44,775 nt of DNA, from positions 1-44,775 of IMG/VR virus record IMGVR_UViG_3300034279_001376. The stretch is one strand, 5' to 3'. The notes below the pieces were generated by a model. It searched no databases. It was not told the origin of the DNA and saw only the letters and a list, made by a program, of their open reading frames with translations. Made by a program: the position numbers and the translations under genes. Origin of the DNA: a virus. Positions 8,220 to 26,190 of the stretch are shown here, piece by piece; the stretch's first letter is position 1, and the number at the start of each line of letters is the position of its first letter.

Positions 8220-9905
8220 TTAAAAAGTAAGTTTTAAAATGCTGTCACCTGATCCTAAACCAGCAGCCGTATTATAATTGTTGATTAAAAACTGTATGTC
8301 TCCGTTTGCAGGAGGTACAGATATACTAGGTTGAAGATTGGGTGTACCTGTGGTCAAAGCATAAGAACCTGTACCGCCTGATAAAGCCACCCCACTAAAA
8401 ATTGGAATTAAGACTGTTGAAATGTCCTGATTGTATACAGTAGAAGCAGTGTTAATATTTAAAGTCACATTGCTTCCGGGATTAGCCGCAGCAGGTGAGT
8501 ATATATCAGCAGCCAATAATTCAGTACCAGCAGGAACATTAATAGTCCATACTGAGGCTGTGTTTCTAGTAAAAGTGGGTGCTGTGGCTCCTGTGTAAGT
8601 GAAAGTACATTTACCAGTACCAGAAATCGGAATTACTGATACTCTTGTAACACTACCTGCATTGGTTTGATATTCTATTGTACCGTCTGATTGAAGAGTA
8701 GGTACTTGTCCTGTAATTGCTGTACCAAGGGCAACATTTGGTGTTCTTAGCCTTAACTTAGAATTGACAGTAGAAGGATTTGCATCTATTACAAAACCTA
8801 CTTCTTGACCAGTGTTAACTTGATAAGTCAAACCCATAGGTAATGTGTGTGCCAGAGAAAGTTGGGCAAACTTATTTGAGTCTAACTTACTGGTGGATTT
8901 TAAATAAGCACTAGTACCACCATCTGCATTTACTACTATTTCTGATCTTACTGGACTACCAGCAGTGTCACTTTCAAACTGTACTATACCAGCATCAACT
9001 ATTACGAAGTCATTCCCGGAAGCATTAATACCAGTGGGAGCATTTAAAGTTCCTCCCAGTTTAAAAGGAGTCAAAACAGATCCATTCCCACTTATCCCAT
9101 TTTCTGCATTTCCAGCAGCCGCAGGTGTAGCATTTAAAGTGTTTCCTGACATAGAAAGGTTAGTACCCAGATTAATAGGAGTAACATTTCCGCTTGAACC
9201 TCTTCCTAATAATTGGTTCAGATTGAGCACTAAGTCAATAGGCACCCCAGCAGTTGCTAAGTTTCTAACTTTGACTGTGTTTGCTGGCATATTTTCCATC
9301 TTGGCATTACTAATGGAAGCCGTGTCTATGGTCCATGTAGTTCCACTTGCACTCACTACTATGTCTCCTTTATCCCCATCTGTTAAACCTGACCCTCCAG
9401 AAACTCCTGAGATGTTATAAGTGACTACATTTCCTGACCTACTTCCTGTAACACCAGCACCAGTCAGGTTAATAGTTGTTACATCAGTTCCACCTAAGTT
9501 AGCACCTTGGGATTGAAATTGAATCTTGTCTTGTTTGAGGGGAACATTCACCCTTATAAAGTCAAGGTCAGTAGCAGCAGTTACCGTGAGATAACCTGTC
9601 TTGATGAAACTAGCAGGAGATTCTAAACCTGCTTCTGTTCCACTTGCGAGTTGAAGAGTAAACCCAGATCCATTTGAATTACTAATCACATTGGTAGTTC
9701 CAGTTCTGGTTACTCCCAAGTTAGTGAGAACTGCACCACCCCCACCCACGGGTATAAGTGTCATGCAGTCCCCACTAGGATTTGTTGCCAAGTTTTTCTC
9801 TATTACAAAGTCAAAGAGTGCTTCTTCTAAGTAAAGACCGGGTTTTCTTTTTGATGTTGCAACCTGATGTGAACTTGGTGCAAACACTACTTTATACTTG
9901 TTCAT
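8220..9905 (-). CDS. Tail fibre protein with conserved N-terminal anchor (561 aa)
   Basis: Residues about 3-50 (YKVVF...ATNPSGDCMTL) match the N-terminus of the small protein encoded just upstream (YKVVI...ATNPSKDCCTL), marking a shared module that probably docks onto the virion. The rest is Gly/Thr/Ser/Asn-rich and beta-rich, with motifs common in phage fibres such as LTDGDKGDIVVSASGTTWTI and GLTYQVNTGQEVGFVIDANP. The C-terminus ends in a beta-rich segment with no recognisable enzyme motif. The gene follows the small anchor gene by 9 bases and its stop abuts the start of the giant fibre, so the three are probably translated from one message. It has no signal peptide, unlike the two downstream fibres. 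A receptor-binding or connector fibre role is inferred from composition and position. Confidence 0.78.
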   Translation of the reverse strand: MNKYKVVFAPSSHQVATSKRKPGLYLEEALFDFVIEKNLATNPSGDCMTLIPVGGGGAVLTNLGVTRTGTTNVISNSNGSGFTLQLASGTEAGLESPASFIKTGYLTVTAATDLDFIRVNVPLKQDKIQFQSQGANLGGTDVTTINLTGAGVTGSRSGNVVTYNISGVSGGSGLTDGDKGDIVVSASGTTWTIDTASISNAKMENMPANTVKVRNLATAGVPIDLVLNLNQLLGRGSSGNVTPINLGTNLSMSGNTLNATPAAAGNAENGISGNGSVLTPFKLGGTLNAPTGINASGNDFVIVDAGIVQFESDTAGSPVRSEIVVNADGGTSAYLKSTSKLDSNKFAQLSLAHTLPMGLTYQVNTGQEVGFVIDANPSTVNSKLRLRTPNVALGTAITGQVPTLQSDGTIEYQTNAGSVTRVSVIPISGTGKCTFTYTGATAPTFTRNTASVWTINVPAGTELLAADIYSPAAANPGSNVTLNINTASTVYNQDISTVLIPIFSGVALSGGTGSYALTTGTPNLQPSISVPPANGDIQFLINNYNTAAGLGSGDSILKLTF

Positions 9906-9914
9906 AGTTTATTC

Positions 9915-10286
9915 TTAACTGATTGTGATTATAGCACCCGTAAGAGTACCAGCATTAATAGTTACGGTGTTGGCAGTTTCAAGAGTAACAGTGGTTAATA
10001 CTTGAAGACCTGCTGATGTCCTTACTTCCACATTCGTAATAAAAGGACTTGGAAGATTCAGGTTATGTGTGATTAACACTGAACCTGTTAAATTCTGGGT
10101 CACTCTGAATTTACGATTTGCTGAAAGTAAAGTACAACAATCTTTACTTGGGTTTGTTGCCAAACCTTTAGCAAGAACAAAATCTACTAATGCTCTTTCT
10201 AAGTCTAAGCCCGGAAGATTTAATCCGGGTTGTTTGAATGCGTAATTACCTTGCTTAATTACGACTTTATAGCCTGCATTTGCCAT
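9915..10286 (-). CDS. Small tail-fibre anchor protein (123 aa)
   Basis: I take the ATG at 10286 (MANAGYKVV) as the start. An upstream in-frame ATG at 10322 would add 12 residues, but it lies beyond the promoter-like element at 10320-10327. Residues about 5-55 align by eye with the N-terminus of the 561-aa fibre: the LE.AL.DFV...LATNPS.DC pattern is shared. The remainder is a short beta-rich domain with RVTQNLTGSVLITHNLNLPS and a Thr/Ile-rich C-terminus. It is the first gene after the non-coding gap and leads the fibre cassette. It may be an adaptor that occupies or builds the same docking site as the larger fibre. I recognise no named family. Confidence 0.68.
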   Translation of the reverse strand: MANAGYKVVIKQGNYAFKQPGLNLPGLDLERALVDFVLAKGLATNPSKDCCTLLSANRKFRVTQNLTGSVLITHNLNLPSPFITNVEVRTSAGLQVLTTVTLETANTVTINAGTLTGAIITIS

Positions 10287-10311
10287 AACTGTGTGTTGTT
10301 TGTTTGTACAA

Positions 10312-10347
10312 CTTCTACGCAAATATACTAAGATACTTACGTAGAAG
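10312..10347. promoter_or_regulatory. Inverted repeat (8-bp arms) around a promoter-like element
   Basis: The arms CTTCTACG (10312-10319) and CGTAGAAG (10340-10347) are exact reverse complements separated by 20 bases. The spacer carries, on the minus strand, the octamer described in the next entry. A dyad around a promoter is a common operator layout, or it may form an RNA hairpin in the 5' leader. Which is true cannot be told from sequence. Confidence 0.35.
10320..10327 (-). promoter_or_regulatory. Candidate -7 element (TATATTTG) for the fibre cassette
   Basis: The minus-strand octamer matches the Bacteroidota -7 consensus TAnnTTTG. It lies 33 bases upstream of the ATG at 10286, in the only gap over 100 bases between genes in the window. 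A matching -33 TTTG box is not seen at the expected distance, so this may be a weak host-type promoter, one read by a phage factor, or chance. Confidence 0.35.
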
Positions 10348-10357
10348 AAGTTTGGTT

Positions 10358-10376
10358 TAACTAATAAAATTAGTTA
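10358..10376. other. Perfect 8-bp inverted repeat with 3-base loop
   Basis: TAACTAAT and ATTAGTTA flank AAA. It lies 28 bases past the stop of the 1950-aa gene and upstream of the fibre cassette. It could be a transcript-end hairpin, but the minus strand lacks a U-tract after it (AAACCAAAC follows) and the stem has a single G-C pair, so intrinsic termination is doubtful. Confidence 0.4.
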
Positions 10377-10403
10377 TTATTTATTTTTTATTGTTAATTA
10401 CTA

Positions 10404-13400
10404 TTACTTAGCAAAAGATTGTGTGCTTTGTATTTTATATTCTGGACTTCCTAAATATAAAATGGCATCATAGTGCATGAGTTTTTTTAGTCTGTGTCCT
10501 AATTTGGAGTCTCCCTCTTCTATAAAATAAGCCTTCATGTCTGCGTCATAATAAGCATCTTCATTGTTAAAGACGTGTGTAAATGAGGCATCTATTAATT
10601 TCTTTCCTTGTTCAAATAATCCAAATCCCATAAAAGGCTCTTTTACGAAATTATAAGTCTCGTTAAAAAGAGGGGGAATCATGGATTCCTGAGTGTTAAG
10701 TAAAGGTATGATAGAAGCAGCATCTGTTTCTTTCTTTGCAGCAAGCATGGTCATAAGAGAAAAATTAGTTGCCCAACTGTTTTCTTTTAACTTGTCATTT
10801 TTTTCTTCATCGTCATCATCATACCCAAATAAGAAAGTGATTAAAAGATAAGTGCTTAACATAGTAATTAACTCGCGTGTCATTTTTCTTCTTGCCACTA
10901 TCTCAAGTGGAGACATTGCTACACCTGAAAATCTACCATTATCAAGATAACTCAAGACTTCTAAGAGAAACCGTTTGAAAGTAGTAACATAAAACCCTTC
11001 TATATCATTCCCCATTACTAGGTTTTTCCGTTTTCCCACGAATCTTTCCCGCAGTTTGGGAATGAAATATTTTTTAAAAAACTCAAAATTTCTCCATATA
11101 GTGAATCTTTGAGCCACAGTGGAGTTGAATTGTTTTCCTTGCACATGCTCTGTGATTACTTTGGTTTTCAAGACCAACTCATTGATGTAGTCTTGATTTA
11201 CTACTTTGTCCCCGTCTTTAGCCTCCTTAATTTTTAACACTCCATTGTCTAAATAAAAAACATCATATAATGGTTTTTCTACTCCATCTATCATTACTTT
11301 TTTGTGGAACAAATGAGCGTAAAGTAAAGTGGTAGTGACTGAAAATTCAGCAGCCTCAGAACTTATGTACTTGAATTTTCCAAATGGATCAAGTTGTCTT
11401 TTTAAGGCAGTCTTACTAAACAAGTCAGTTACATTTTGTGACATAGACAAGTTGAATAGTGTAACAATTTGAAAGTCAAGGCTTTTCTTTTGGTTTCCTA
11501 ATTCACTTATAAACGGAATGAAAGAAGTCTTTGCAGATTTCATGGCTTTCATTATACTCCTAGAGTCTGCCCAATCTGCATCCACAGAAATAATGTTGGT
11601 GAGCATGCCTTGAATGTAGTTCTTTAGGGAGTTGGCCGGGTTAATAATAGATTGAGAAAACAGTGAAGTCCAGTTTCTCATCATTAAGGTAGCCTTGTCC
11701 AAACCTCTTCCTAGTTCGTAATCCTTGACATCTCCATACAATTTGGTTTTCTTGATGTTTTGGATTACTTCTAATCTCCGATTCTTGCCTGTTTTGACCC
11801 TTCTACCACCAGTACCTAAAAGGTCTTTTTCAAAAGGATTAAACTGCTCTAATAGTTGTTCTAAAAGATTAAGTTCTGGAACATTACCTATTAATGCTTT
11901 GGTTCTTTCTAGTCCTTCTGAATAGTTAAGCACCGATGTTAACACATCTCTGGTCACATCCTTCTCTTCTATGTAATTTTTATAAGGAGTGTGAATACTA
12001 GAAATCTTGTTCCCTAAAAGATCAGTCTGGACTTCTCTTTGAGCCTTAGTCTCTAATCCCACAAATGCTCTTAATCTGTCTGCAAACTTACTCCTTAAAG
12101 GCGTGGCATTTTCTTCACCACTTTCTACCGGGTTTATGTTTTCAGTAAATGACTTCCATAAAGAGGCTAGCCCACCACCATCAGTAAATGTCTTGTGCAT
12201 AAACGGGGCTTTATAACCCATACGTGTGTTTTTAGGGGCATCTTTTTGAACCTTACGGTAAAAATCTACCAACTTTTTGTGGTATGCTCTGTCCGAAGCA
12301 TTCATGCTATAATATGCTTCGTTCCTAAACTCGTCAGATTTTGGCAACCATTGCTCGGTTACATCATCCCAAGTATTTTCATTCTTCTCTGTCTTGATCT
12401 GAAAAAATTCTACCCTGTCCTCAAACTCTACTACTACGTTATCTTTTATCTTTCGGTTGGAGTATTTCTGGTTAGGGATCAAAAGAATATCCTCGGTGTT
12501 GTTTGGGGTTATTTTCATCCAAATATAAGTAGGTTTATAATCCACTACGACTTCACCATCCTCCTCGTATTCCTTCATAAAATGGTTCGTGTTAAACCAG
12601 TCTAAGAAATCTTGAGGAGCAGTTTGCAAAAAGGTCTGAAATTTAGAACTTCTTACCAAGGCTAGAAAGTCTTCATTTTCAAATACTCTTCCTAATTCTT
12701 TTGGGTAGATCTTTTCTAATTTAGCAAACATTACTTCATTATAATAGTCAGTGGGCTGCTTGCTTTGAAGATCACTCAACTCTTCAATAACCTTTATAAT
12801 TTTTTTTCTCAAGGCTTTAGCAACATCACTGTCTAAACTTGAACTCTGCTCCTTTATTAGAGCCTTTAGGATATTAATTTCGGTTTCTGCTTGCTTTATT
12901 AACTCTTGATGTTCGAGTGAGGAGTCAGAAGCATCAAATACTCCATTCTCGTCTCGAAGGGAAGATGAAATGTTGAATAGTTCCTCCCAAGAACTTTGCA
13001 AAGCCTTGTTGGATTCTTCTAGTGCTTCTTGTTGATCCTTAGAGAGTAAGGCTCCTAGTTGACTGATTGCTCCTTTTAAGTCGTCTATAATCTTTTTCCT
13101 ATTCTCATAAAATGATTCCGAGTAAGTAAATTTCGTGTTCAATTCTACCCAGTCTATAAAAGTTTGTGGAGCACGGGCTTCTGCTAATGCTTTTAACTCA
13201 TTCAACCATAACGGGTTGTTAGTGTCTAAAAGATCAGACAAGTCCCTTTGAAGGTCTAAGTCTGCCAATTGACTAATCCTTTCATTGAGATCCTTTAAAA
13301 ACCGTTTATTGTCTATTTTATAATCATACAATTGGCGGTCTATAATATGTTTTCTTTTTAAGACATCAGAAATTCTTTTGTCTTTTTCTGGGTCATTATT

Positions 13401-16256
13401 GACTTCTTTATTCCGGTTTGTCTCTACATCAAAAGGATTTCTTAGATTCTTGATCCTGTTTTCTATATTTGTGATCTTAGCCTGTAATATAATTTGTTCT
13501 TCTTTTTCTATGTGGGGTTGTTTCAACTCGGCAACTAAAGATTTCTTTTCATCCCATAATCTTTCTTGTGCTTCTAATGCTCTGTCAAAATCTTCACCTA
13601 CCAGCCCGAATTTCTCGTATATTTCCCAAGTTTCTGTTTGGAACTCACGATTCCAGTTTGCTTTTTCCCAAGCCTTAAATTCCTTAAATGCTTCTTCGTA
13701 AACTCTATGAGCCTCTAGTGTTTCAGGAGTGTCCTCCCCCAAAGCCTTGGCCTCATAGAATTTCTTTCTTAACTGTTCTACCTCAAATTCTTTGGCTCTT
13801 CTTACCCATACGTTTTTATGTGGACTATGAAACATCAAGACATCTCTTTGGTCCATAGTGCCATCCTCTTTAATGTAATTTTCTTTGTCTATGCCTGTGA
13901 TTCTGGCTCCTACTGCTTCATTGTTTTCCTTAGTTCCTAAGTCATTGATTAACTCAACACTGTTGGCTAGGGAAACTTGGTTGGCTCCTATAATAGACCT
14001 TTCTACTACTGTGGAAACAGTCTGAATTAAATCATCCCCGATAAATAAAGAGTTTTCAAAGTAAGCACTCATTGCCACATCACCCTCTAAACCAAAGATA
14101 ATATTGGCTAATTTTTGAGGTGTTATAATTGCCTCATCATATTCTTCTTGAGTAATTTGTCCTGCCCTTAAAGCAGCCATTTTACCCACGTTGTAATCTT
14201 TGCCCACATCTGCCAATTGAGTGGTGAGTAAATCCACGGAAAGTTTGTTAATTCTTTCCTTGGAGATTCTAAGAGCAGTTCCTAAAGCAGCAAACCTTTC
14301 CTTGAGAACCTTGGTTTCTTGAAAGTCAGGATGAGAAAGGATAGGTTGAATGCTTTTTAACCAGTCTTCCCATTGAAGAATCATTCTCATTAAAACAGCA
14401 GCATCTTTGATTCCTTTATTCACGTCTTCTTTACTCCCTTCTAAGAGAGTTCTCAAATATTGAAAGTCGGCCTTGTTTGCATTCTCCCAAAAAAGAGTAG
14501 TAGAGCCTATTGAATTTACAAAGTTTAAAAGCCCTTGTGAAAACTCTACTGAATTTTCCTCAAGTTGGCGTATGATTTGTCTGGCTCTGTCAATAGGAAT
14601 GGTGAGGTTTCCAAATTTGTCTTTAAATAAGTCTGAGAGTCCATCTGCTCCTTCCTCATTTGCATCTTCGTTCTCTATTCGATTTACTATCCGAGAAATT
14701 AACTTTAAAGCAGGTTTAGCCAAGTTCACTATATTGTCAGGGGATAATTTTTTAAACTCTTCTAGGACAACCTCACTGAACTCTTTTGCTTCTGCCTCGA
14801 TTGCTCTTCTTTTCATCATCTCCCCGTAATCAGTGTACTTTACTTTTCCATTGTTATAGTAAACAAAGTCAGTGTCAGTGCCTGAGAAGTCCTTGGTGTT
14901 ATCCACTACTAAAGTATTTCCTTTCTTTTCTTGTTCTACTATGTCAAGTTTGGAAACAGGGTCCATTATGAAAGTACCATCTTCTGACTCTAGCATGTCT
15001 TCTTGACGAGTAGAAACTAACTTGACAGGTCCAAATTCATTTTCTAATCTGTCCCTTAATTCTTGGGTGATTTCACCACTCGTAAAGAATACAAATTTAC
15101 TGGATCCTACTATTTTGATTTTGTCCTTGAGTTCCCTGCCTAGTTTTGTTAAACGGGAATTAGTGTAATATTTTTTGAGGTCTTCACTGTTAGGTATTGA
15201 CCACATTCTACCCTTGATTGCTTTTCCGGGGATAATCTTTTCAGGGTCTCTTCGAGACGGTCTGTCTGGAATAGTATAGTTCTTTAAGTCAAGGAGTGAA
15301 TCATTCACATTGATTAAGACAGTATCGTAATCTCCCAAATCTTTGTTTAAAGTTTGGAATTGTCTGAAATCACTCAAGTCGTGAATTTGATACATAGTAT
15401 CCGATAACATAGCATTCGAGTAGAGTAACTCGGTTGTTTCAAGACTTAAAATTCTCATTGCTGCTTGATTAAAAGGATTCTTTAAACCCTTAACCCGTAG
15501 TATGATGTTTTGAATTATAGACCTCATTTTATTCCACAGATCAGGGGAACCAGAATAATACGCAGCCAAGGCTTTATTGTGGGTGTAAAGCGAGACTAAC
15601 TTGGCCATAGCCTCTCTTTTTAATTTTTCGTAGTTTCCCTTGTACTCAGGATGACTCCCATATTCCTTGAGGACATGTTGGTACATCTTGGTCATGGTAA
15701 TGCTGGATTCCATTTCTTTGTACAATTTGCTCCCTTTGTCTAACATTTCTACAAACACGTGAGCAACCTCTTCTGGAATTGCAGACTCATTGCCTCGTTT
15801 AATCTGAATCAGAAATTCATTCAACTTAGTGACAGCACCTACACTAATACCTTGGTTGTCATTCAATTCATCCAAAGTTTCTAACCTGAAATCTGGGTTC
15901 ACTCGCAGTAAAAAATTTCTTAACGTGTCAAGTATAGGTTCTGGTACAGTACTAAATGGTTCCGGGTTTAACTGGTAGTTCGAGGAATTAACTATTTTCT
16001 GCTCCTCCAAGTTATCAGGGTAATTTATTCCCTTGTGAGCATCTATTAATCTGAATGCACTTTCATTAAAAATAACTTTACCGTTTTCCTCAAACATAAG
16101 TTTAGGAGTGCCAAACCTGCTGGTAGCATTTTCGGAGTATAACCTGTTCACTTTTCTGAACTCATTTAGGTTCAGAATGTTGTTCCATTTATCTATAACA
16201 CCATTTGTAACTAGGTGTGCTTTAGTTTTTGCTCTTGTTGTTGTTACGTTACACAT
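10404..16256 (-). CDS. Giant virion cargo protein with degenerate zincin and HAD-like domains (1950 aa)
   Basis: The gene starts 2 bases after the stop of the RNA polymerase gene. Residues 162-166 read EEVAH in an IPEEVAHVFVEML context resembling a zincin helix with the first His replaced by Glu; a Glu near 215 could be the third-ligand position. Residues about 311-455 resemble a HAD fold without its nucleophile: VLINVNDSLLD replaces the usual hhhDxDGTL, FFTSG resembles motif II, and TLVVDN resembles the last motif. Residues about 500-1250 are highly charged and probably helical or coiled coil. Near the C-terminus is one membrane-like segment (LITMLSTYLLITFLFGY) followed by an acidic DDDDEE run. 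Size and position next to the polymerase suggest an ejected cargo protein as in other crAss-like phages. The domain calls are by eye and tentative. Confidence 0.72.
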   Translation of the reverse strand: MCNVTTTRAKTKAHLVTNGVIDKWNNILNLNEFRKVNRLYSENATSRFGTPKLMFEENGKVIFNESAFRLIDAHKGINYPDNLEEQKIVNSSNYQLNPEPFSTVPEPILDTLRNFLLRVNPDFRLETLDELNDNQGISVGAVTKLNEFLIQIKRGNESAIPEEVAHVFVEMLDKGSKLYKEMESSITMTKMYQHVLKEYGSHPEYKGNYEKLKREAMAKLVSLYTHNKALAAYYSGSPDLWNKMRSIIQNIILRVKGLKNPFNQAAMRILSLETTELLYSNAMLSDTMYQIHDLSDFRQFQTLNKDLGDYDTVLINVNDSLLDLKNYTIPDRPSRRDPEKIIPGKAIKGRMWSIPNSEDLKKYYTNSRLTKLGRELKDKIKIVGSSKFVFFTSGEITQELRDRLENEFGPVKLVSTRQEDMLESEDGTFIMDPVSKLDIVEQEKKGNTLVVDNTKDFSGTDTDFVYYNNGKVKYTDYGEMMKRRAIEAEAKEFSEVVLEEFKKLSPDNIVNLAKPALKLISRIVNRIENEDANEEGADGLSDLFKDKFGNLTIPIDRARQIIRQLEENSVEFSQGLLNFVNSIGSTTLFWENANKADFQYLRTLLEGSKEDVNKGIKDAAVLMRMILQWEDWLKSIQPILSHPDFQETKVLKERFAALGTALRISKERINKLSVDLLTTQLADVGKDYNVGKMAALRAGQITQEEYDEAIITPQKLANIIFGLEGDVAMSAYFENSLFIGDDLIQTVSTVVERSIIGANQVSLANSVELINDLGTKENNEAVGARITGIDKENYIKEDGTMDQRDVLMFHSPHKNVWVRRAKEFEVEQLRKKFYEAKALGEDTPETLEAHRVYEEAFKEFKAWEKANWNREFQTETWEIYEKFGLVGEDFDRALEAQERLWDEKKSLVAELKQPHIEKEEQIILQAKITNIENRIKNLRNPFDVETNRNKEVNNDPEKDKRISDVLKRKHIIDRQLYDYKIDNKRFLKDLNERISQLADLDLQRDLSDLLDTNNPLWLNELKALAEARAPQTFIDWVELNTKFTYSESFYENRKKIIDDLKGAISQLGALLSKDQQEALEESNKALQSSWEELFNISSSLRDENGVFDASDSSLEHQELIKQAETEINILKALIKEQSSSLDSDVAKALRKKIIKVIEELSDLQSKQPTDYYNEVMFAKLEKIYPKELGRVFENEDFLALVRSSKFQTFLQTAPQDFLDWFNTNHFMKEYEEDGEVVVDYKPTYIWMKITPNNTEDILLIPNQKYSNRKIKDNVVVEFEDRVEFFQIKTEKNENTWDDVTEQWLPKSDEFRNEAYYSMNASDRAYHKKLVDFYRKVQKDAPKNTRMGYKAPFMHKTFTDGGGLASLWKSFTENINPVESGEENATPLRSKFADRLRAFVGLETKAQREVQTDLLGNKISSIHTPYKNYIEEKDVTRDVLTSVLNYSEGLERTKALIGNVPELNLLEQLLEQFNPFEKDLLGTGGRRVKTGKNRRLEVIQNIKKTKLYGDVKDYELGRGLDKATLMMRNWTSLFSQSIINPANSLKNYIQGMLTNIISVDADWADSRSIMKAMKSAKTSFIPFISELGNQKKSLDFQIVTLFNLSMSQNVTDLFSKTALKRQLDPFGKFKYISSEAAEFSVTTTLLYAHLFHKKVMIDGVEKPLYDVFYLDNGVLKIKEAKDGDKVVNQDYINELVLKTKVITEHVQGKQFNSTVAQRFTIWRNFEFFKKYFIPKLRERFVGKRKNLVMGNDIEGFYVTTFKRFLLEVLSYLDNGRFSGVAMSPLEIVARRKMTRELITMLSTYLLITFLFGYDDDDEEKNDKLKENSWATNFSLMTMLAAKKETDAASIIPLLNTQESMIPPLFNETYNFVKEPFMGFGLFEQGKKLIDASFTHVFNNEDAYYDADMKAYFIEEGDSKLGHRLKKLMHYDAILYLGSPEYKIQSTQSFAK

Positions 16257-16258
16257 AT

Positions 16259-19200
16259 TTAAAATGGTATGTTATTGTTAGGTTTGCCTTTAATTGCGCA
16301 CAAATCTACGACTTTATCATCTAATAAAGGAGAACTAATTTCAGACCTTAAAGCAGTCTCTATTCTTTTCTGTTCTGAAATCCAATATGCACTTGGAGAC
16401 TTATTCTCAGAAATAAAATCTATTACGTCATCTACTGTAAATCCTAACTTATAAGTGTCATTCAAGTCCTCAAGATAGAGATCAAGTGATTGACCTTTGT
16501 TGGATACGTAATTAATTCCTCTTTCTTGTAACCAGTTTTTATCAAAGTTACGTTTAAAAGTTTCTGCTGTTAACCTTACTCCTTTTTTCCCTCCAAAATC
16601 AGAAGCAAGAATATCAGTTTTACTTTGAGGAAACCTTTGTCTTTCTTCTATTTGTTCAAATGAAATTTTAGATATTTCTTTTTCTGTTAAAGGGGAATTT
16701 TCAAAAGAAGGTTTAATCCCCAAGGTTTGCTTTACTGCATTCCAAGAAAACACATTTTGATTTGTCACAGATACTGGTTCAACACTAGGAGTGTTTACAG
16801 AATTATTAAATATTTCTTTGATTGCTTGCTTACCTGCTTCATTAATTTCACGAGTACCAATACCTGCAAATTTTTTAGTCAATACTGGTGTAGGTACTGA
16901 AACAAATTTTTCAGTGCTGTAATCCCACTTGTACCAACCAACACTTGCTTTGTTGTCAGAATTAGTACCTTGGTGAAACACATAAACAGGTTTTCCTAAA
17001 TTAATAGCCATTTGTACTGCATAACCTGTACCACCATCAACTATTTCTTTACTAGATTTGCTGGTGTATCTGGTACCTTTGGATGCTTTACCTTTTTCTC
17101 CAACTCCAATTATATCACTTATTGCAAAAATAGCATCTGCTGCTTTTGCCTGTAAATAATCCCTTCTTACTAAACCACCCACATAATCTTCTCTTTGAGG
17201 ACTAACCCAGTTGTAAGACAGAGTTTTTCTACCCAAATCATCTTTTGCTTTCAAATAAGCAGACTCCACTTCTTCTTGTTGAGGCTTAGTTAATGAGTTT
17301 AAAGTTTCAACTTTATAATTGACTGTTTTACCTACTCCAAATTCTTTACTTTGTGCAGCCCACAGTTTATCAGCACCGATTGCATCACCTGAGTATAAAG
17401 TATGCTCGGTGTAATTAGTTGATTTAGGTGTAATTTCAATGGTAACAGGTATGCTTTGGACTTGCTCGTTAAAATCAAACTGGTATTTCATAAATCTGAA
17501 ATTCCTTTTGTCAAACATTGCTTTAACCGCATTAACACCAGCAGGATTATACTCTTTGACAAAAGAACTACCAAATTCTAATACTCGGTTTTGTAAAAAC
17601 TTCTGCCAGAATTTATTGATGAACTCTTGTTTCTGTTTCTCACCTAGTCTAGTGAACTTTGTGTAAGCCTCGGAAGTGATTGCAGTAATCATACTTGGAG
17701 GAATACCCTTTAACATATACAACTTACTCTGGTTGAAACCACTCTGAAAGAAGGCAACCCTAACCAGATCTTTAGCAAATTGTGCTTGATCTGGTGTTCC
17801 GTTTAGTAAATTTTGGATGTCTTGAGCGAGTGTGTCATAAGTATCCGTGTCATTGTCTAAGCCTACAAAATACATAGGATTTACAAAATCTTCGTACCTG
17901 TCTGCAATTAACTTAGAACCTAATACTGTGTCTTTTAATTCCGGGTACTTTTCTTTTAAATTCGCCCAAGTATCCATTAGTGGGCCAGTCATTAGATTCT
18001 GAACCTCTACCAGATCTTCATTTCCTAAATTCTGAATAATGGCCATTAAGAAGTCATTGTCAATAACCCTTACGAATTTCTCTTTATCACTTTTAACTCC
18101 TAGCCCTTTTTGGGTCACAAAATCTACAAATACTTTATCGTTTTTGATTCCAAAAGCAGCCTCGGATATTAACTTAAACTCTTCGTGGACATTCAAGTGG
18201 GAAATTACAGAATCATTGTGAATTTTATCAGAGGATTCAAGGCTGAAAAGTCCATCAACTTCTACATCAGGATTTTCTTCTTGGATGTTACTCATTTTGT
18301 AAGAAGGGTTAGTACTGGTGTCAAAGTTATTTTTGCTTTGGACTTTACGCAGTGCATCTGCTTGTGCTAAGCCCACAAGATAATACACTAGGACTTCTTT
18401 GTTGAAAGTTGACCTAGAACCAAGAGGTTGTATTTCCCTCAAGTTCAAAGGATTAGAGTAACCTATGCGTTTAATGTCTTCCCATATTTTTTTGTTGGAC
18501 TTGGGAAATGTTCCGTCTTGAGTGACTATTACAGGGTCTATTTCTAACAGTTCAAGCATGGCTTCTTTTTTAGCCTCTCCTCTTGAATAACCCTTTCCTA
18601 CCAATACGTTTATTTTTTGGTGGTACGTGTAAATCTCAGGCTGGTGAAGAAGTTTAAGAACTTTTGGTAAAGGAGTTCCAAGCATAGTCTGAAACATCAC
18701 AAATCCTGTATTGTCTGAGATAAGATTCGTGTAACCTGCAATGTCATTAGAAGCAGCATCCACTGTGATATTGATGAACTGGTTAATGATCTCTAACTTA
18801 TCTAACGTAGTTCTCTCTTTGTCAATGATAAAAGGGTCTGAAATTTTTACCAATTTTTGTTCTTCCTCGGTCAACAAAGGTACATTAAACTCAAAGCCTA
18901 CTTCATTGATAGTCAAAAAACTATTGAGTTTAAAATCTACTGTTTGCATTAACGTGTAGAAAGTGTTTGCAACAGCACCTATCCCTAAGAGGTCTTTAAT
19001 CTTAACTGCTTTCCATTTCTTTAAGTGAGTAGTGTAACTGAACACTCTACTCAATTGAGGCTCTGCATTTACCTTACCTACACCCGGATACAATTTAGCA
19101 GTCACTTCTTCTACTGCACCCTTGATAAGAGCATCAGTATTGGGGGTGATTAACCTGTGGAAATTGACAGGATTCAAAACTATGTCTTTGCTTGCTTCTA

Positions 19201-22200
19201 AGACTTTGTTGTGTTTTACTTGTTTGAACACGCTATCTTTGGCAGCCTGAATAAATGCTTCTTTTGTTATAACCTCACCTTTTTTAACAAGACGAGATTT
19301 TACTATATCAATTATATCTTCATTTACATTAAATCCAGACTTGTCAGAAATAATCCCTAAAATCTGAGAAAGAGGGGAAGACTTAATAATGTCTATTTGA
19401 CTCATTAACTCCTCGTACAATTGCTCATATTTTTCTGACAAATAGTTTTCATTGGGAGCAGTTATGTACCTACCGTTCTTACCAATAGAAGGTAAAATTA
19501 CACTTTCCTTATCATAGTCATAATCCGTACCTGATTTGGTAACAATTTGTGGGGGTGGTACAATAGTATTACCCATCCATTGAGGCAAGAATCTCTTGAC
19601 CATAAATATGTCCATAGAGTTCAGACCTTGTGTTGGAATACGATAAGCAGAAAGAGTTAATTCTTTTTTATATTTTTTGCGGAAAGCCTTGTCTTTTAAT
19701 AACTCGTTGAGTTCTTCGAGAGTGTTATTAGTTACTTCTGGGAGGTTCAAAAGATTCAAAAAATCCCCTGAAAGTGTGACCATACAATCAGCAGGTAACA
19801 CTTCTCCATTTTCATAACGATAAAACTCTAATTCTTCTGCACCAAATAATGCAGGAGCCACTTGAACCAATTGCCCACCCGGAAACTTGGCTTTCACAAT
19901 ACGATTTTTTAAAAGCGAATATATTAAGGTTTCAACACTTTGAGGACTTAAAGATTCTTCGAGGTTTTGACCTGAGTAATTGTCGAATAATTCAGTATAA
20001 GCCAAAGGTAAATCTCTGCTTTCTAACTCTTCCTTGATTAATTCTACAACTTTATAAACATCTACTTGTCCATCCTCTGCTCCTAAGTCTTTCATCAAAG
20101 TTTCCCTAGCATTTTCTGCAAGTTCTCTTTGGCCCTCTATCCAGTTACCTACCGCAGACTTGAGTGAGTTCATAAACTCCCCATTTAAGGAGATGTTAGA
20201 AAGAACCAACTTTCTTTTCTGAGAACCCATCAAATTTTCTGTCTTGATGTAATCAGGAGTTTTTACTTGCTCCTTTAAATAAACAGTGTCTATTTCGTGC
20301 ACAGATTCGTACTCTTTAACCACTTGCCAATCATCAGCATTAAATGTTCCTAACTTGGTTCCTGATTGAAATTTACCGTATGCTATGCCTTGTTTTGACA
20401 TTTGCTCAAAATGCTGTTCTGCTAATGTTCCTTTGATAAAGTCAGGAAACAAAGGAGTAAGAGCAAACTTGTCCAATAACTCTACTGCTACATTAGTTTT
20501 ACTAGCAGGTCTTGCAGAACCTCTGTATTGGAATTTCAACTTAGGAAACTGAAAGTACCAACCTTTTTCTTTGATGTTTAATTCGACTTGCTCAAACAGC
20601 ACTTGTTCTTGTTCTGAGATTATGAATCCTTTTTCTTTCTTAAATTTAGTTGCTAAGTATTGAAAACCTTCTTCTTTTTCAGGTCCCCAAGAATTTACTG
20701 CTTGACACATAATTCTATAAGCATCAGGATGTACCCAACCTTCACCATCTCCTATGTCAGAACTTGGACCATCTTCTTTAGTAGAGTTTCCATAAGGAGC
20801 CACAACTTCGGATGCTCTTTCTTCCAAGTTCTCAGGAGTTCTACCAAAAAACTCATCAGTTAATTTTAATGAGTTTTTAGCACCTTCTGTTAAGTTCTTA
20901 ATCTGTTCTGGAGAAGCCTTCATTTTAGCCTCTTTCAGAACTATGGATTTCATTTTAGTGGTGTCATTGTAATATTCTGGTCTAACCCCAAAAGCCTCTG
21001 AGAAAGTGCCTCCTTGGAGCCTTTCTTTAAATACGGTCTGTGCAGCCTGTGACATTACAAAAGGAGTACCGTTTGAAATGTTAGACTTTAACCTTTTGTA
21101 TATTTTGTCAAATTGCCCCAGTTCTCCATGAAACAAAATAATTTCTTCGATGGACATTACCAAGGAATTGAGAAGAAACTTATCTAATAATCCCTCTAAG
21201 TCCTCAGATGCTTCTTTCTGTAATTGAGAAAGGAATATAGGATGGCTTTCATCTACTGGTTGACCAGTCTCTTGAAGAATCCAATTTTTAAAGTCTTGTT
21301 TTTGAGCCTCAAAGTATGCCTCGAATTGCTCGTAAAATTCCTCTTTTCTGTCCTCTACAAATTGAGACACCTGCTCCAAAGACACGAGATCAAGATCAGT
21401 CAAAAAAGTGTCATCTAAAAAACTAAAAAATGTTAAACCTTGTTTTTTGTTTTCGTAGAATTTAGAGCCATATTTAGTAGGTTCATTTCTCTCTAGCCAA
21501 ACTCTTTCTAGTTCTCCTTTTAAGTATTGTTTGAATTGAACCTTGGCATTTTCTATTACATTTTTAGTGCCCAATGGAAGGTAAGTTCCTGCAACAGTGC
21601 TTGATTTACCATAAGCCACTCTAAACCCAAATGAAGAAGATGCTGTTTCTGCTCGAAGGTTCTCTTTGAAGCCACCCTCCAACACAGTGACCAATTCTTG
21701 TCTTACATACTCAATCGTAGGCAAGGAGATAGTATTGGTTCCATTCTCTAAGAATTGTGTTCCTGATACATTAAGAGGGGTTATTTTAGCACCACCTTTA
21801 ACCGCATTTAATGCCAATGAGTACTTGGCGATAGGATTTCTTAACCTTTCTACCCGTTCAAAATTACCTTCGTTTATAAACTTAATATTAAGCAGATAAG
21901 AAGAAAAATTATGCAGATTGCTCTGATTCTTCCCCTCTGGGTTTTTAGTCATATTACTCGTAGAATATGGCAAATACTTTGACATGGTGTTTTGGAAGTC
22001 AAGAACAACTCCTTTGTATCCTATAAACTTCTTACCGTCTATTTCTTGAGCATTTTCTAAAAAGTCAAATATATCAAAAGTAATTTCTAGTTCTGTGTTC
22101 TTTACGTATTCTAACTTATTTACCAATTTTGTCAAGAAATTTCCACTAACGGAGTAAACCTCGTTACGTACAGTAGGATATGATTCCATCTGAGAAGTGA

Positions 22201-25200
22201 TATTTACCCCGAAGTTTTTCATTACTTTTTTTATGCTGTCCTCAGTGTATCCACCTCTGATTGTTTTTAACTCCTTGTTTAAGTAATCTAAGAGAGAGTT
22301 AGGTGTCAACTCATCAAACTCCTTGTCTGCAAAAGCCTTAAAACTGTCCAACATTGCAGACTTAATATTTTGTGCATCTAGTCTTCCTGATTCAAAAATA
22401 TCATAAGAAAATTTCCGGTCAGGTCTTTCTTTAGAGTATTGGGTATTAAGACCTGCAAATTCTTGCTCAAACATTTCCTCTTCATACACTGGCTCTCCAT
22501 ACTCCTCTTGCTCATACCAATTATCTTTAGAGTTTATTTCTTTCTGCTTGACTATAATAGTAGGCACTAAAACCTTTGAAAAAGATTGCTCTATTCCTTT
22601 CAAAATAAACATTTCTTCATAAGCACTATCTCCTGTGCCAGTTAATTGCTCTAGGCGTTCTAGCACTATGTTCATTTCAGGCAATTTTTTGTAGCCTTTT
22701 AATTTTTCCTTAATTTCCTCGATGTCAAGTGAGCCATGCACTGCATCAGCAATACTGTTCCATAAGGTAGTATAATCACTAGGAATTAAATTACCGTTTT
22801 TATCCTTGGCATAAACATACTGTCCATTATCCATTACTGGTTCCCCATCTTCTAGGAGGATCTTAGGAATCATTTTAATAAACACTCTCGCATATTTAGT
22901 ACCAGCATCTACTGAACTGATAGAACTTTCTGTTCTGTCTTGAAATTTAGTCTCGGTATCAGACTGAGTTTTGTCTTTTACTTCAAGTTCCGCTAGTTTT
23001 GAGGATTTTAACCAAGTCTCAAAAGTAGCATCAAAGTCTTTCAAGAAAGGTTTAAGATACTCAGCCCTTAAAGGGTCTTTAGATTCTAATTCTAACTCTT
23101 CTAATAGCACTTCTTTAACCAATTCAGCATCCAAATCTCCATTTAAAAGATCAGCAAACTGCCCTATATCCCATGCCAGATTCGAGAGTAACATGTCTAA
23201 ATGAGCAACAGGTATTTCTGGTACACGGTCAAATGAACCTAGTATTTTTTTCTTGCTTACTAAAGTTCTTTTCTTAGGTCCTATCTCCGAGGGTACATTT
23301 TCTACAAATTGTTGAACTTTTGAAGTCCTGTTAAATATCAATTTGAGAAGATCAAAAGTAACTTGCTCTTGTATGCTTGGATTCTCGTAGAATAAACTGG
23401 CTATTTTAGACATTAACTCATTTAAAAGACCAAGAATGTATTCGTAAATTCCTTGGTTGCTTGTTGTCTCATAAGTAAAACCTGATTCTTTAATCAAGTC
23501 CTGCATAAAAGGCATAGTCAAGGAAGTTACAAACTCTTCCATGCTTTCTGTATAATACTGCATTCTGTCAATACTATACATACTTCTAAGATGGTTTCTT
23601 AGTCTGTCTAATTCTTGGTATTCTACTGTGTCTTTTTGGGAGCCTAAATTATCTGCTGTGTAAGCATGGATCAATTCTTCAAGTACGTATCCTTTTACAT
23701 TTCCCTTGGTAATTTGGGAAGCCCTTAAATAAATTTGACCATTAGTATAGGCTGCTATTAAGTCAGTGCCTAATTTGTCCATTTCAGCATCAGACAGGAA
23801 ATTGACTGACTTACCCTCTTTCAAAAGAGAATAAACCAATTCACCTTGCTCGCTTAGTGGTTCCCCTTTGATTGAATTGATAGGAACTGTTCCTACTGGG
23901 AAATCTTGAACCTCTTGAATATCAGAAACTTCAAGTCTGTCCCTATCGTAAGTAAATACATAGTTTTCTGCATAACCCAACCTACCGTTTACTTGGGTTA
24001 ATCTAGTGCTTAGTTTTCCTAGTAAATATTCTTCCTGTTCAGGTTTGGGCCATAAGGTGTCTTTAATACCATTGTCATAAGTTAACCTTTTGGTGTAACT
24101 ACCTACACTGTTTCCCTCGAATGTTTTGGGTACACGTATTCTCTGACCTAATAGAGCCAATCTAACCTTGGGTGTTATTTCACGCACTGGTTTTTGATTG
24201 GTTTCAGTCACATAACTTCCCTCACTTTTATACCTTTCGACTGAATATTCTATCTTGAAATTGTCACCTTCCTTGTAAGGGTAAAAAGCAATTCCTCTGC
24301 TTGTAACTTTAATTCCTTTGGTTAAAGCCTCTTCGTATGTTTGAACATCTTTGGGAGTGGTGAATTCACCTAGCATTAATATTTCGTTCAGGTAATTAAT
24401 AACTTTAGAAACTTCTGCAAAAGATTTGTAATCGCCTGCCATTAACCCTAAAACCTCTTTGTGCAATTCCTCTCCATCAGTAAGGGTTCCAATGGAAATT
24501 AATTCAACACCTTTAGGCCCTCTTAATCTAGGTACACCTCTGTCCCCAAATGGTGCTTCTTTATCAGGAATGAATATTTGGTCAAGAGTTACTCCTCTCT
24601 CTTTAAAACTTTTATACTCGCTGTCCACAGAGGTTGCTTCTACCCTGTAAGTTATTTCTTTTCCTTCACTCAACAACTGCTCAAATTCTGCACGTTTCTG
24701 AGAAGGCACGGATAGGTAAAGTTGAGAACCTCTTTTTCTTTCTTCTTCTATCTTGTAATCAAATATATACGCCTTTGACTTATCAGTAGTCAATTCACCA
24801 GCCTCAAATTGTTTAGGTTTAGAGGTTAAATATAATGGCTTCCATACACCGTTTTCTTTCCTTTCTAAAATAGCAACTACTCCTTTCCCAGAATTAACTT
24901 GAGCCCTTGTTAAAGGAACTCCATTGGCTAAAGGTTGCACAAAATCTTCACTGGCTCTCACCACTTTAACTCTAGTTTCTCCTTCTAGCCCTAAGATCAG
25001 GGCTTGTCTGGCCAAATCCAATTCATCAGTACTTGTGCTGAAAGTCTTGAAAATCAACCCTTTAGAGGCAGTTGTTTTGGTGATAGGTTCTGGAGCCACC
25101 ACCTCTTTCTCCTCGTAGTCCTTAAAGTTATCAAGTGTAACAGGCTCAAATCCCATCACTAGATTGGCACGTTTTTCTGCTATTGACTTAGATATTGAGT

Positions 25201-25756
25201 CATCTATTTCTACGCCAAAATCCTTGGCTATCTCTAAATAATAGTCAATAATCCCGTTGTCTCCTATTACTGAGTTTAAGAATTTGCTGCTTTGTTTGTC
25301 AGTTTTTTCAAGTATTTTAGGGACTTGGTTTTCTAGGACATTCTTTACATTAGAAGCATCAGGTAAAAAGTAGTTTCCTAAGAAAAGTGTGGCTAGAGTG
25401 TCTAAGTCAGAAGCCTTTCCTAATTCCGTATTAATGTCAGGGATAGTGATGCTGTACTTATTCACGGTAGCCCCCTTAACTAAACCTTTTAAGTTCTTAC
25501 CCAGTTCGAGGTTGGGCAAAGAAACTTGCACCTCAAGACCATTTGCTGTGTCTATAACTTGTAAAAACTTGAGTTTTTTAGCAACCCCTTTTTGTCCTTG
25601 GAAATCCAAAGAAACTGGAATTGCTTTTTTGTCCACCAATAAAGCCTTTTTGAGTGCTTTCTTGAAGTCCTCTATGTTGTCGAATTTATTCCCAAGTTGT
25701 TTTGAGAGTAAAGGGTCTTTTATAATTAATTTACAATTCAATAAACTTAGGTTCAT
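16259..25756 (-). CDS. Virion RNA polymerase fused to degenerate zincin and SLOG-like domains (about 3165 aa)
   Basis: I choose ATG 25756, which overlaps the previous stop as ATGA, over an in-frame ATG 33 bases upstream. Residues 2078-2082 are DYDYD within KSGTDYDYDKES, the metal-binding Asp motif expected of crAss-like virion RNA polymerases (DxDxD, related to two-barrel polymerases such as QDE-1). Supporting segments are KFPGGQLVQV (about 1957-1966), YRIPTQGLNSM (about 2038-2048), GIGAVANTFYTL (about 2258-2269) and ITVDAASNDIAGYTNLISD (about 2330-2348). Upstream, residues 693-697 read EELIH, a zincin helix with Glu for the first His, and EEF near 741 sits where the third ligand would be. 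Residues about 2786-2985 form a SLOG-like domain. It probably travels in the virion and transcribes early genes after ejection. Polymerase identity is strong; the extra domains are inference. Confidence 0.86.
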   Translation of the reverse strand: MNLSLLNCKLIIKDPLLSKQLGNKFDNIEDFKKALKKALLVDKKAIPVSLDFQGQKGVAKKLKFLQVIDTANGLEVQVSLPNLELGKNLKGLVKGATVNKYSITIPDINTELGKASDLDTLATLFLGNYFLPDASNVKNVLENQVPKILEKTDKQSSKFLNSVIGDNGIIDYYLEIAKDFGVEIDDSISKSIAEKRANLVMGFEPVTLDNFKDYEEKEVVAPEPITKTTASKGLIFKTFSTSTDELDLARQALILGLEGETRVKVVRASEDFVQPLANGVPLTRAQVNSGKGVVAILERKENGVWKPLYLTSKPKQFEAGELTTDKSKAYIFDYKIEEERKRGSQLYLSVPSQKRAEFEQLLSEGKEITYRVEATSVDSEYKSFKERGVTLDQIFIPDKEAPFGDRGVPRLRGPKGVELISIGTLTDGEELHKEVLGLMAGDYKSFAEVSKVINYLNEILMLGEFTTPKDVQTYEEALTKGIKVTSRGIAFYPYKEGDNFKIEYSVERYKSEGSYVTETNQKPVREITPKVRLALLGQRIRVPKTFEGNSVGSYTKRLTYDNGIKDTLWPKPEQEEYLLGKLSTRLTQVNGRLGYAENYVFTYDRDRLEVSDIQEVQDFPVGTVPINSIKGEPLSEQGELVYSLLKEGKSVNFLSDAEMDKLGTDLIAAYTNGQIYLRASQITKGNVKGYVLEELIHAYTADNLGSQKDTVEYQELDRLRNHLRSMYSIDRMQYYTESMEEFVTSLTMPFMQDLIKESGFTYETTSNQGIYEYILGLLNELMSKIASLFYENPSIQEQVTFDLLKLIFNRTSKVQQFVENVPSEIGPKKRTLVSKKKILGSFDRVPEIPVAHLDMLLSNLAWDIGQFADLLNGDLDAELVKEVLLEELELESKDPLRAEYLKPFLKDFDATFETWLKSSKLAELEVKDKTQSDTETKFQDRTESSISSVDAGTKYARVFIKMIPKILLEDGEPVMDNGQYVYAKDKNGNLIPSDYTTLWNSIADAVHGSLDIEEIKEKLKGYKKLPEMNIVLERLEQLTGTGDSAYEEMFILKGIEQSFSKVLVPTIIVKQKEINSKDNWYEQEEYGEPVYEEEMFEQEFAGLNTQYSKERPDRKFSYDIFESGRLDAQNIKSAMLDSFKAFADKEFDELTPNSLLDYLNKELKTIRGGYTEDSIKKVMKNFGVNITSQMESYPTVRNEVYSVSGNFLTKLVNKLEYVKNTELEITFDIFDFLENAQEIDGKKFIGYKGVVLDFQNTMSKYLPYSTSNMTKNPEGKNQSNLHNFSSYLLNIKFINEGNFERVERLRNPIAKYSLALNAVKGGAKITPLNVSGTQFLENGTNTISLPTIEYVRQELVTVLEGGFKENLRAETASSSFGFRVAYGKSSTVAGTYLPLGTKNVIENAKVQFKQYLKGELERVWLERNEPTKYGSKFYENKKQGLTFFSFLDDTFLTDLDLVSLEQVSQFVEDRKEEFYEQFEAYFEAQKQDFKNWILQETGQPVDESHPIFLSQLQKEASEDLEGLLDKFLLNSLVMSIEEIILFHGELGQFDKIYKRLKSNISNGTPFVMSQAAQTVFKERLQGGTFSEAFGVRPEYYNDTTKMKSIVLKEAKMKASPEQIKNLTEGAKNSLKLTDEFFGRTPENLEERASEVVAPYGNSTKEDGPSSDIGDGEGWVHPDAYRIMCQAVNSWGPEKEEGFQYLATKFKKEKGFIISEQEQVLFEQVELNIKEKGWYFQFPKLKFQYRGSARPASKTNVAVELLDKFALTPLFPDFIKGTLAEQHFEQMSKQGIAYGKFQSGTKLGTFNADDWQVVKEYESVHEIDTVYLKEQVKTPDYIKTENLMGSQKRKLVLSNISLNGEFMNSLKSAVGNWIEGQRELAENARETLMKDLGAEDGQVDVYKVVELIKEELESRDLPLAYTELFDNYSGQNLEESLSPQSVETLIYSLLKNRIVKAKFPGGQLVQVAPALFGAEELEFYRYENGEVLPADCMVTLSGDFLNLLNLPEVTNNTLEELNELLKDKAFRKKYKKELTLSAYRIPTQGLNSMDIFMVKRFLPQWMGNTIVPPPQIVTKSGTDYDYDKESVILPSIGKNGRYITAPNENYLSEKYEQLYEELMSQIDIIKSSPLSQILGIISDKSGFNVNEDIIDIVKSRLVKKGEVITKEAFIQAAKDSVFKQVKHNKVLEASKDIVLNPVNFHRLITPNTDALIKGAVEEVTAKLYPGVGKVNAEPQLSRVFSYTTHLKKWKAVKIKDLLGIGAVANTFYTLMQTVDFKLNSFLTINEVGFEFNVPLLTEEEQKLVKISDPFIIDKERTTLDKLEIINQFINITVDAASNDIAGYTNLISDNTGFVMFQTMLGTPLPKVLKLLHQPEIYTYHQKINVLVGKGYSRGEAKKEAMLELLEIDPVIVTQDGTFPKSNKKIWEDIKRIGYSNPLNLREIQPLGSRSTFNKEVLVYYLVGLAQADALRKVQSKNNFDTSTNPSYKMSNIQEENPDVEVDGLFSLESSDKIHNDSVISHLNVHEEFKLISEAAFGIKNDKVFVDFVTQKGLGVKSDKEKFVRVIDNDFLMAIIQNLGNEDLVEVQNLMTGPLMDTWANLKEKYPELKDTVLGSKLIADRYEDFVNPMYFVGLDNDTDTYDTLAQDIQNLLNGTPDQAQFAKDLVRVAFFQSGFNQSKLYMLKGIPPSMITAITSEAYTKFTRLGEKQKQEFINKFWQKFLQNRVLEFGSSFVKEYNPAGVNAVKAMFDKRNFRFMKYQFDFNEQVQSIPVTIEITPKSTNYTEHTLYSGDAIGADKLWAAQSKEFGVGKTVNYKVETLNSLTKPQQEEVESAYLKAKDDLGRKTLSYNWVSPQREDYVGGLVRRDYLQAKAADAIFAISDIIGVGEKGKASKGTRYTSKSSKEIVDGGTGYAVQMAINLGKPVYVFHQGTNSDNKASVGWYKWDYSTEKFVSVPTPVLTKKFAGIGTREINEAGKQAIKEIFNNSVNTPSVEPVSVTNQNVFSWNAVKQTLGIKPSFENSPLTEKEISKISFEQIEERQRFPQSKTDILASDFGGKKGVRLTAETFKRNFDKNWLQERGINYVSNKGQSLDLYLEDLNDTYKLGFTVDDVIDFISENKSPSAYWISEQKRIETALRSEISSPLLDDKVVDLCAIKGKPNNNIPF
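16802..17404 (-). other. Circularly permuted SLOG-like domain within the RNA polymerase gene
   Basis: In order along the protein: TLYSGDAIGADKLWA, then an Arg-containing helix leading to DAIFAI, then VDGGTGYAVQMAI, then GKPVYVF, and finally KKFAGIGTREI. In ordinary phage SLOG (DprA/LOG-like Rossmann) proteins the FAGIGSR strand comes first, ahead of SGGAxGAD, the Arg-Asn segment and GGTGQAI. Here that strand has moved to the C-terminal end. The family binds nucleotides or related ligands; the ligand here is unknown. Confidence 0.6.
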
Positions 25757-26190
25757 AAAATAAAATATTCTGTTTTGTTTGAAATACAAGGACTCGCTAA
25801 AGTAGGAAAGTTAAAACTGTACAAAGTTCCTTCCCAATTTATTTTTTCTTGTGAAACTATTTTGTGGTCTGTGAGGTGAGTTTTAAAGTGCTTACAACCT
25901 TTTGTAAAAAATGTAGATGTAGGTTCTAACCGGATTACTTCGTCAAATTCTACATAATTTTCCCACTGCTCTAGTAAGGATAACTCAGTGGCAAGTTCTG
26001 TTTTTTTAATCTTGGTTTTGTCCAACACTCCTGAATAATGAAATTTTGTAAAAACAGTTTGCTTTTGCCATACTATCTTATTTTCAGAAAGCGTTAGAAA
26101 TACAGTGTCTAAAGTTATACTAGACAGTAACTCCCATCCGTTGTCAGTAAATACAAAATGAAAATCTGGTATAGCCAGTAATTTATTCAT
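25753..26190 (-). CDS. Hypothetical protein (145 aa)
   Basis: The start ATG at 26190 overlaps the preceding stop by one base (TAATG); a TTG six bases upstream is less likely. Its stop overlaps the polymerase start as ATGA, so it is sandwiched and probably translationally coupled between a cargo protein and the polymerase. The protein has alternating hydrophobic and polar residues suggesting beta strands, several aromatic residues, no signal peptide and no membrane segment. I recognise no family. Its position suggests a small virion component or a chaperone or adaptor for packaging the polymerase, but nothing in the residues proves that. Confidence 0.6.
   Translation of the reverse strand: MNKLLAIPDFHFVFTDNGWELLSSITLDTVFLTLSENKIVWQKQTVFTKFHYSGVLDKTKIKKTELATELSLLEQWENYVEFDEVIRLEPTSTFFTKGCKHFKTHLTDHKIVSQEKINWEGTLYSFNFPTLASPCISNKTEYFIL

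Follow-up and report, generated by a model that had tools for sequence, protein, structure and literature searches.

A circularly permuted SLOG domain on a crAss-type virion RNA polymerase recurs across large phages and on unrelated N4-type polymerases

The minus strand of a 44,775-nucleotide viral DNA stretch (here called the window, i.e., the whole stretch analyzed) encodes a giant crAss-type virion RNA polymerase, identified as such by homology, with a circularly permuted SLOG domain behind its catalytic core. Computational comparison with related phage sequences establishes the domain's fold, permutation, conserved motifs, and polymerase fusion, as well as its repeated movement between polymerase proteins. 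The distribution is best explained by a mobile module exchanged between unrelated virion polymerases. The SLOG superfamily, circular permutation, and polyvalent polymerases are each already known separately; what appears to be new, in that we found no description of it, is that a permuted SLOG serves two unrelated virion polymerases as an exchangeable module and has NADAR and ADP-ribosyltransferase (ART) domains among its neighbors. No report of a fusion between a permuted SLOG and a virion polymerase was found in the literature searched, which excluded most subscription journals. The features concerned are as follows.

16259..25756, minus strand: multidomain virion RNA polymerase ORF, 3165 aa (ATG at 25756; in-frame TTG upstream at 25789)
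18926..21799, minus strand: crAss-type RNA polymerase core, homologous to the phi14:2 RNA polymerase (6vr4) and crAss001 gp50
19511..19525, minus strand: catalytic DxDxD, here DYDYD, its three D invariant or nearly so in relatives
16802..17404, minus strand: circularly permuted SLOG domain, residues ~2780 to 2993 (confident fold island at ~17419-16778)
17398-17369, minus strand: LYSGDAIGAD, with SGDAIGAD at 17369..17392
17150..17164, minus strand: RDYLQ, on a helix (family pattern R-N/D-W/Y-x-Q)
17137-17120, minus strand: DAIFAI, in frame
17003..17041, minus strand: VDGGTGYAVQMAI, its Q at the putative equivalent of the LOG catalytic Glu
16996-16976, minus strand: GKPVYVF, in frame
16844..16870, minus strand: FAGIGTREI, the last strand here but the leading one in ordinary-order SLOGs
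16262..16777, minus strand: C-terminal tail beyond the SLOG domain, ~170 aa, of low model confidence

The polymerase assignment rests on a core profile built from 16 relatives, which matched the phi14:2 polymerase (6vr4_A) with an E value of 1.2e-86, and on the presence of the DxDxD motif. Residues 1331 to 2288 (counted from the TTG) matched 94 phage records by tblastn, and most of the records among the matches listed bear Crassvirales or crAss-like phage names; they include the crAss001 "putative RNA polymerase," i.e., gp50. Since mass spectrometry has revealed gp50 in crAss001 virions (PMC10172136), the window polymerase is probably also packaged and injected with the DNA. The 131-kb virus record that contains the window has a portal, a terminase large subunit, and a DNA polymerase recognizable with PHROGs.

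The window polymerase shares its homologous DxDxD core with phi14:2 gp66 and crAss001 gp50 but adds the SLOG domain and the C-terminal tail (crAss001 is missing from the 22 phage records that match the SLOG domain). The last strongly conserved polymerase element is an invariant Gly near residue 2673, and the SLOG domain lies past it. The fusion C-terminal to a virion RNA polymerase, as given in the original prediction, is thus borne out, with the tail and not the domain forming the extreme end. An HExxH motif, the signature of a zincin-like protease that might free the SLOG domain, is absent from the whole window protein, a difference from the polyvalent proteins of the N4 virion RNA polymerase (vRNAP) type. 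The segment LEELIHAYTADN at 23683-23648 (residues ~692 to 703) resembles a zincin HExxH site with Glu in place of the first His, and LEELIH near residue 690 is maybe an HExxH remnant. As HExxH itself is lacking and this HExxH-like segment is present, a self-processing protease of the window protein may have decayed.

The five motifs on which the SLOG assignment had been based (SGDAIGAD, DAIFAI, VDGGTGYAVQMAI, GKPVYVF, and FAGIGTREI) all lie in frame on the minus strand in the order originally described, SGDAIGAD forming the glycine-rich loop that follows the permuted domain's first strand (family consensus, SGGAxGxD). Membership in the SLOG superfamily is borne out by a profile match to PHROG 768 ("DprA-like"; E value, 2.6e-8), by an alpha/beta structural model, and by the GxGS/TR, SGGAxGxD, and GGTG-type motifs. 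The AlphaFold2 model, computed from an alignment of 36 sequences (pLDDT, 93; pTM, 0.90), is Rossmann-like with strands alternating with helices and forms a discrete, confident island between low-confidence flanks; both the fold and the significant profile match are the outcomes on which the prediction had staked itself. No Pfam family reached its curated cutoff for the window domain, and the Pfam SLOG families DprA, cpYpsA, YAcAr, and LDcluster4 matched single members of the family only, all under the cutoff. Foldseek, which follows sequence order, found only noise in the PDB, where a match can be hidden by the permutation; among viral models it matched a protein of an Agrobacterium phage and giant proteins of crAss-like phages, as well as, with a weak score, a Medusavirus "molybdenum cofactor carrier," a name formerly used for the cpYpsA family. 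The PHROG 768 match, the confident model, and the recovery of 49 and 80 related loci in two IMG/VR searches together show that the domain is not a chance resemblance.

The proposed circular permutation was examined in four sequences by transferring the segment with the C-terminal strand (KKFAGIGTREI...) to the N-terminal end and scoring the result against PHROG 768, whose profile starts with the GxGSR strand (the ordinary order) that comes last in the family studied here. Rotation raised the score of all four, from 34.7 to 39.9 bits for the window, 44.6 to 52.8 for L009, 53.0 to 61.4 for Pylas, and 74.1 to 83.9 for Cr30, and a single alignment then spanned nearly the full profile in three of the four; with the moved segment reversed as a control there was no gain (33.1, 44.2, 50.9, and 67.5 bits, respectively). 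The Pylas domain likewise rose from 15.9 to 24.0 bits against Pfam DprA when rotated (over 47 to 207) and fell from 16.3 to 14.2 bits against the already permuted cpYpsA, which indicates, as judged by profile scores, that the native order of the family is that of cpYpsA.

The permutation hence stands, but it is not peculiar to this protein: the permuted order of the three motifs was found in 83 of 88 distinct relatives, and none of the 88 had a GxGS/TR within 60 aa upstream. It is thus a trait of the SLOG family and not of the polymerase fusion. The same counts exclude an annotation or frame artifact as the source of the order. A second, truncated SLOG beginning at FAGIGTREI is also rejected, the strand being modeled confidently within one domain and the score rising upon rotation.

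Two known families are among the closest. The cpYpsA family (PF12694) shares the permuted strand order, as judged by the rotation test and its control, and the unrotated Pylas domain gives an alignment that includes its C-terminal GxGTR strand and spans profile positions 41 to 125, compared to only 41 to 103 after rotation. However, the best cpYpsA score was 16.3 bits against a cutoff of 26.2, only 1 of 41 members of the SLOG family matched (E value, 0.0086), and the family described here has long inserts and was phage restricted in the searches made; cpYpsA itself gave no match in any genome tried as a source of comparison sequences. The "DprA-like DNA recombination-mediator protein" family, PHROG 768, gives a significant profile match despite the difference in strand order, and the window domain lacks the ordinary strand order of DprA (PF02481).

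The domain is by no means confined to this polymerase. Its family occurs in three settings, i.e., as small proteins of ~180 to 260 aa in large phages, in crAss-type polymerases, and in the unrelated N4-type polymerases. It matched 22 phage records with the window domain as the query and 87 with that of Pylas, was found in no plasmids, and was carried by one contig that looks like a phage but had been binned with a Mollicutes genome. This contig (L106; MSHB01000026.1), inside a Mollicutes metagenome-assembled genome, is crAss-like and apparently TAG recoded. The SLOG or polymerase frames of L006, L007, L053, L054, L103, and L106 are open when TAG is translated and not taken as a stop, so these phages may have recoded TAG.

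The survey of crAss-like polymerase genes suggested in the original prediction revealed that the fusion recurs: SLOG was in the same frame as a crAss-type polymerase in 38 of 99 nonredundant ORFs, a sample partly picked on SLOG presence, and in 9 of 80 when the sample was picked on the polymerase alone (near-copies counted). The domain follows the core in 31 of the 38 ORFs, at a distance of 508 to 1720 aa, and precedes it in 7 (L001, L008, L033, L065, L066, L068, and L074). Three N4-type polymerases carry it, those of Klebsiella phage Pylas, PT15-A5, and L092. The Pylas RNA polymerase matches the N4 vRNAP (2po4) with an E value of 1.7e-42; L092 matches the N4 type only weakly (~30 bits), with a tblastn alignment to the Pylas vRNAP that covers two regions. 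Because the Pylas polymerase is of N4 type but carries a SLOG that shares 56% identity with those of Crassvirales cr113_1 and cr109_1, exchange of the module between the polymerases would account best for the data. On a quick tree with long branches, the crAss-polymerase label requires at least nine changes and the N4 label at least two, on the starred branches.

The window protein also resembles the phage polyvalent proteins of Iyer et al. (2017; PMC5512222), large, injected multidomain proteins that combine polymerase with effector-like domains. By its SLOG and RNA polymerase domains it would belong among them, and its relatives add NADAR, ART, 2OG oxygenase, and helicase domains. The partner domains of N4-like RNA polymerases given in that study are protease, ART, lysozyme, and RNase, and the word SLOG is absent from its text (PMC5512222). 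Among the 12 giant polymerase proteins of alignment A4, four have a 2OG-Fe(II) oxygenase, three an SF1 helicase, and one a tRNA-ligase-type CPDase.

NADAR domains, which strip ADP-ribose from guanine (PMC11125620), lie directly before SLOG in L042 and L080 (over the Pfam cutoff) and in L044 (a weaker match), all within ~110 bp, and farther from it in L103, L053, L055, L068, L048, and L132. The gap was 500 bp or less in five of nine cases, L048 included (simulated P = 0.008 in a crude test that ignores relatedness). Of the 38 crAss-type polymerase ORFs with SLOG, 8 also contained NADAR, compared to 5 of the 61 without SLOG, a difference that is not significant (Fisher P = 0.076) in a sample partly picked on SLOG and uncorrected for relatedness; the co-occurrence is only suggestive. 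An ART-PolyVal domain was found after or before SLOG, in the same or next ORF, in L042, L036, L043, L006, L007, and L103. Neither NADAR nor ART was detected in the window genome.

The candidate ligand-site residues are strongly conserved. R81 and Q85 (the R and Q of R-N/D-W/Y-x-Q) are kept in 96 and 100 of 102 loci, respectively, the GGT motif in 101 to 102, and the C-terminal GxG-R in 95 to 101. At the catalytic-Glu position of LOG enzymes (PGGxGTxxE), here Q131, 72 of the 102 loci have Gln, the window among them, and 20 have Glu. This residue pattern suggests that the binding site is kept and LOG-type catalysis perhaps lost, and since the site residues are kept across 102 loci, a binding function of the domain is likely under selection. 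We propose that R81 corresponds to the Arg found in the ligand site in other SLOGs. The ligand pocket of ThsA holds Arg371 and Glu403 (PMC7272460), to which, from the motifs, R81 and Q131 would correspond. The SLOG (STALD) domain of Thoeris ThsA is similar in superfamily and in the Arg on the ligand-site helix (Arg371, R81 here by motif), whereas the domain studied here is permuted, lacks a SIR2 partner, and has Gln at the presumed place of Glu403.

Taken together, these features are most likely to mean that the SLOG domain is delivered with the virion and acts in counterdefense by binding or processing a nucleotide of the ADP-ribose type, a reading we regard as evenly poised between right and wrong. 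Like its homologues in crAss001 and phi14:2, for which this has been reported, the polymerase would be packaged and enter with the injected DNA, so that the SLOG domain would be inside the cell before any phage gene expression; there it would bind, and perhaps cleave, a nucleotide derived from NAD or ADP-ribose, thereby weakening host defenses that use NAD/ADP-ribose signals or modifications. The NADAR and ART domains beside SLOG in relatives, which may perform connected chemistry, lend indirect support to the originally suggested role of sensing or capturing a defense nucleotide; the best ordinary-order matches, DprA-like families of DNA binders, argue against an ADP-ribose-type role. The sponges Tad1 and Tad2 and other proteins by which phages are known to counter Thoeris-type signals are phage encoded and made after infection starts, while a SLOG already attached to an injected polymerase would be at work from the first moment. 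That two virion polymerases of unrelated origin bear the same domain points to selection for its delivery within the virion, and its recurrence in dozens of phages and on both injected polymerases suggests a possible ready-made delivery route against NAD/ADP-ribose defenses. In the excerpted text of PMC9503650, Iyer and colleagues predict that viral SLOGs in general act on ADP-ribose signals; they propose sensing for other phage SLOG fusions and, in those excerpts, do not mention polymerase fusions. More tentatively, and with a chance we would put clearly below even, NADAR, permuted SLOG, and ART might form an exchangeable cassette on the virion polymerase that neutralizes NAD-based immunity at genome entry and that has moved between crAss-type and N4-type polymerases and phages of different bacterial phyla.

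The DprA resemblance could alternatively reflect DNA handling, the domain binding the entering single-stranded or unwound phage DNA to aid polymerase engagement or protect the DNA. The rotated domain fits DprA-type profiles best (Pfam DprA for Pylas; PHROG 768), both carrier proteins are injected polymerases acting on entering DNA, and the standalone version in Cr30 adjoins T4 gp46/47-type recombination genes. We nevertheless consider this unlikely: the DprA scores remain below the Pfam cutoff, the rotated window domain fits DprA over the first strands only, NADAR and ART share polypeptides with the domain in relatives, and SLOG is absent from about nine-tenths of the sampled crAss-type polymerases, which makes it dispensable for transcription. 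Physical fusion to two kinds of polymerase would also suit an allosteric switch, with SLOG sensing a cell nucleotide and turning the attached enzyme on or off, in line with the predicted nucleotide sensing by ThsA-type SLOGs (PMC7272460) and with that proposed for other phage fusions in the excerpts of PMC9503650. Its variable placement before or after the core, at considerable distance when after, the low-confidence flanks, and its standalone occurrence make such a switch rather unlikely.

An enzyme of LOG type, i.e., a nucleosidase/phosphoribohydrolase acting on ordinary nucleotides in metabolism or signaling and not on defense signals, would fit the LOG-like conserved R and GGTG motifs and the Glu found at the Q131 position in a minority of loci; with Gln prevailing there, in the window too, and no above-threshold match to the LOG Pfam families, we deem it improbable. 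The patchy presence and variable position of the domain are what a spreading module without benefit of its own, or a spacer, would produce, but near-invariant site residues across very divergent phages render a passive passenger very improbable indeed.

The public names of these proteins also deserve comment. SLOG and NADAR fusions explain the misleading names ("DprA-like," "DUF1768") of several Crassvirales polymerases. The RefSeq "DprA-like" name covers both standalone and giant crAss-like members of the SLOG family; the giant RNA polymerases of cr130_1 and cr113_1 (L053 and L054) are misleadingly named "DprA-like DNA recombination-mediator protein" because the name was taken from the SLOG domain. 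NADAR also occurs on crAss-type virion RNA polymerases without SLOG (L108 [cr126_1, 8341-15549], L115, L119, L125, and L184), and "DUF1768 domain-containing protein" is the sole annotation of the one in cr126_1. Agrobacterium phage Atu_ph07 (L060, 594-3531) has a gene for a standalone permuted SLOG at a distance of two genes from one for NAD synthetase.
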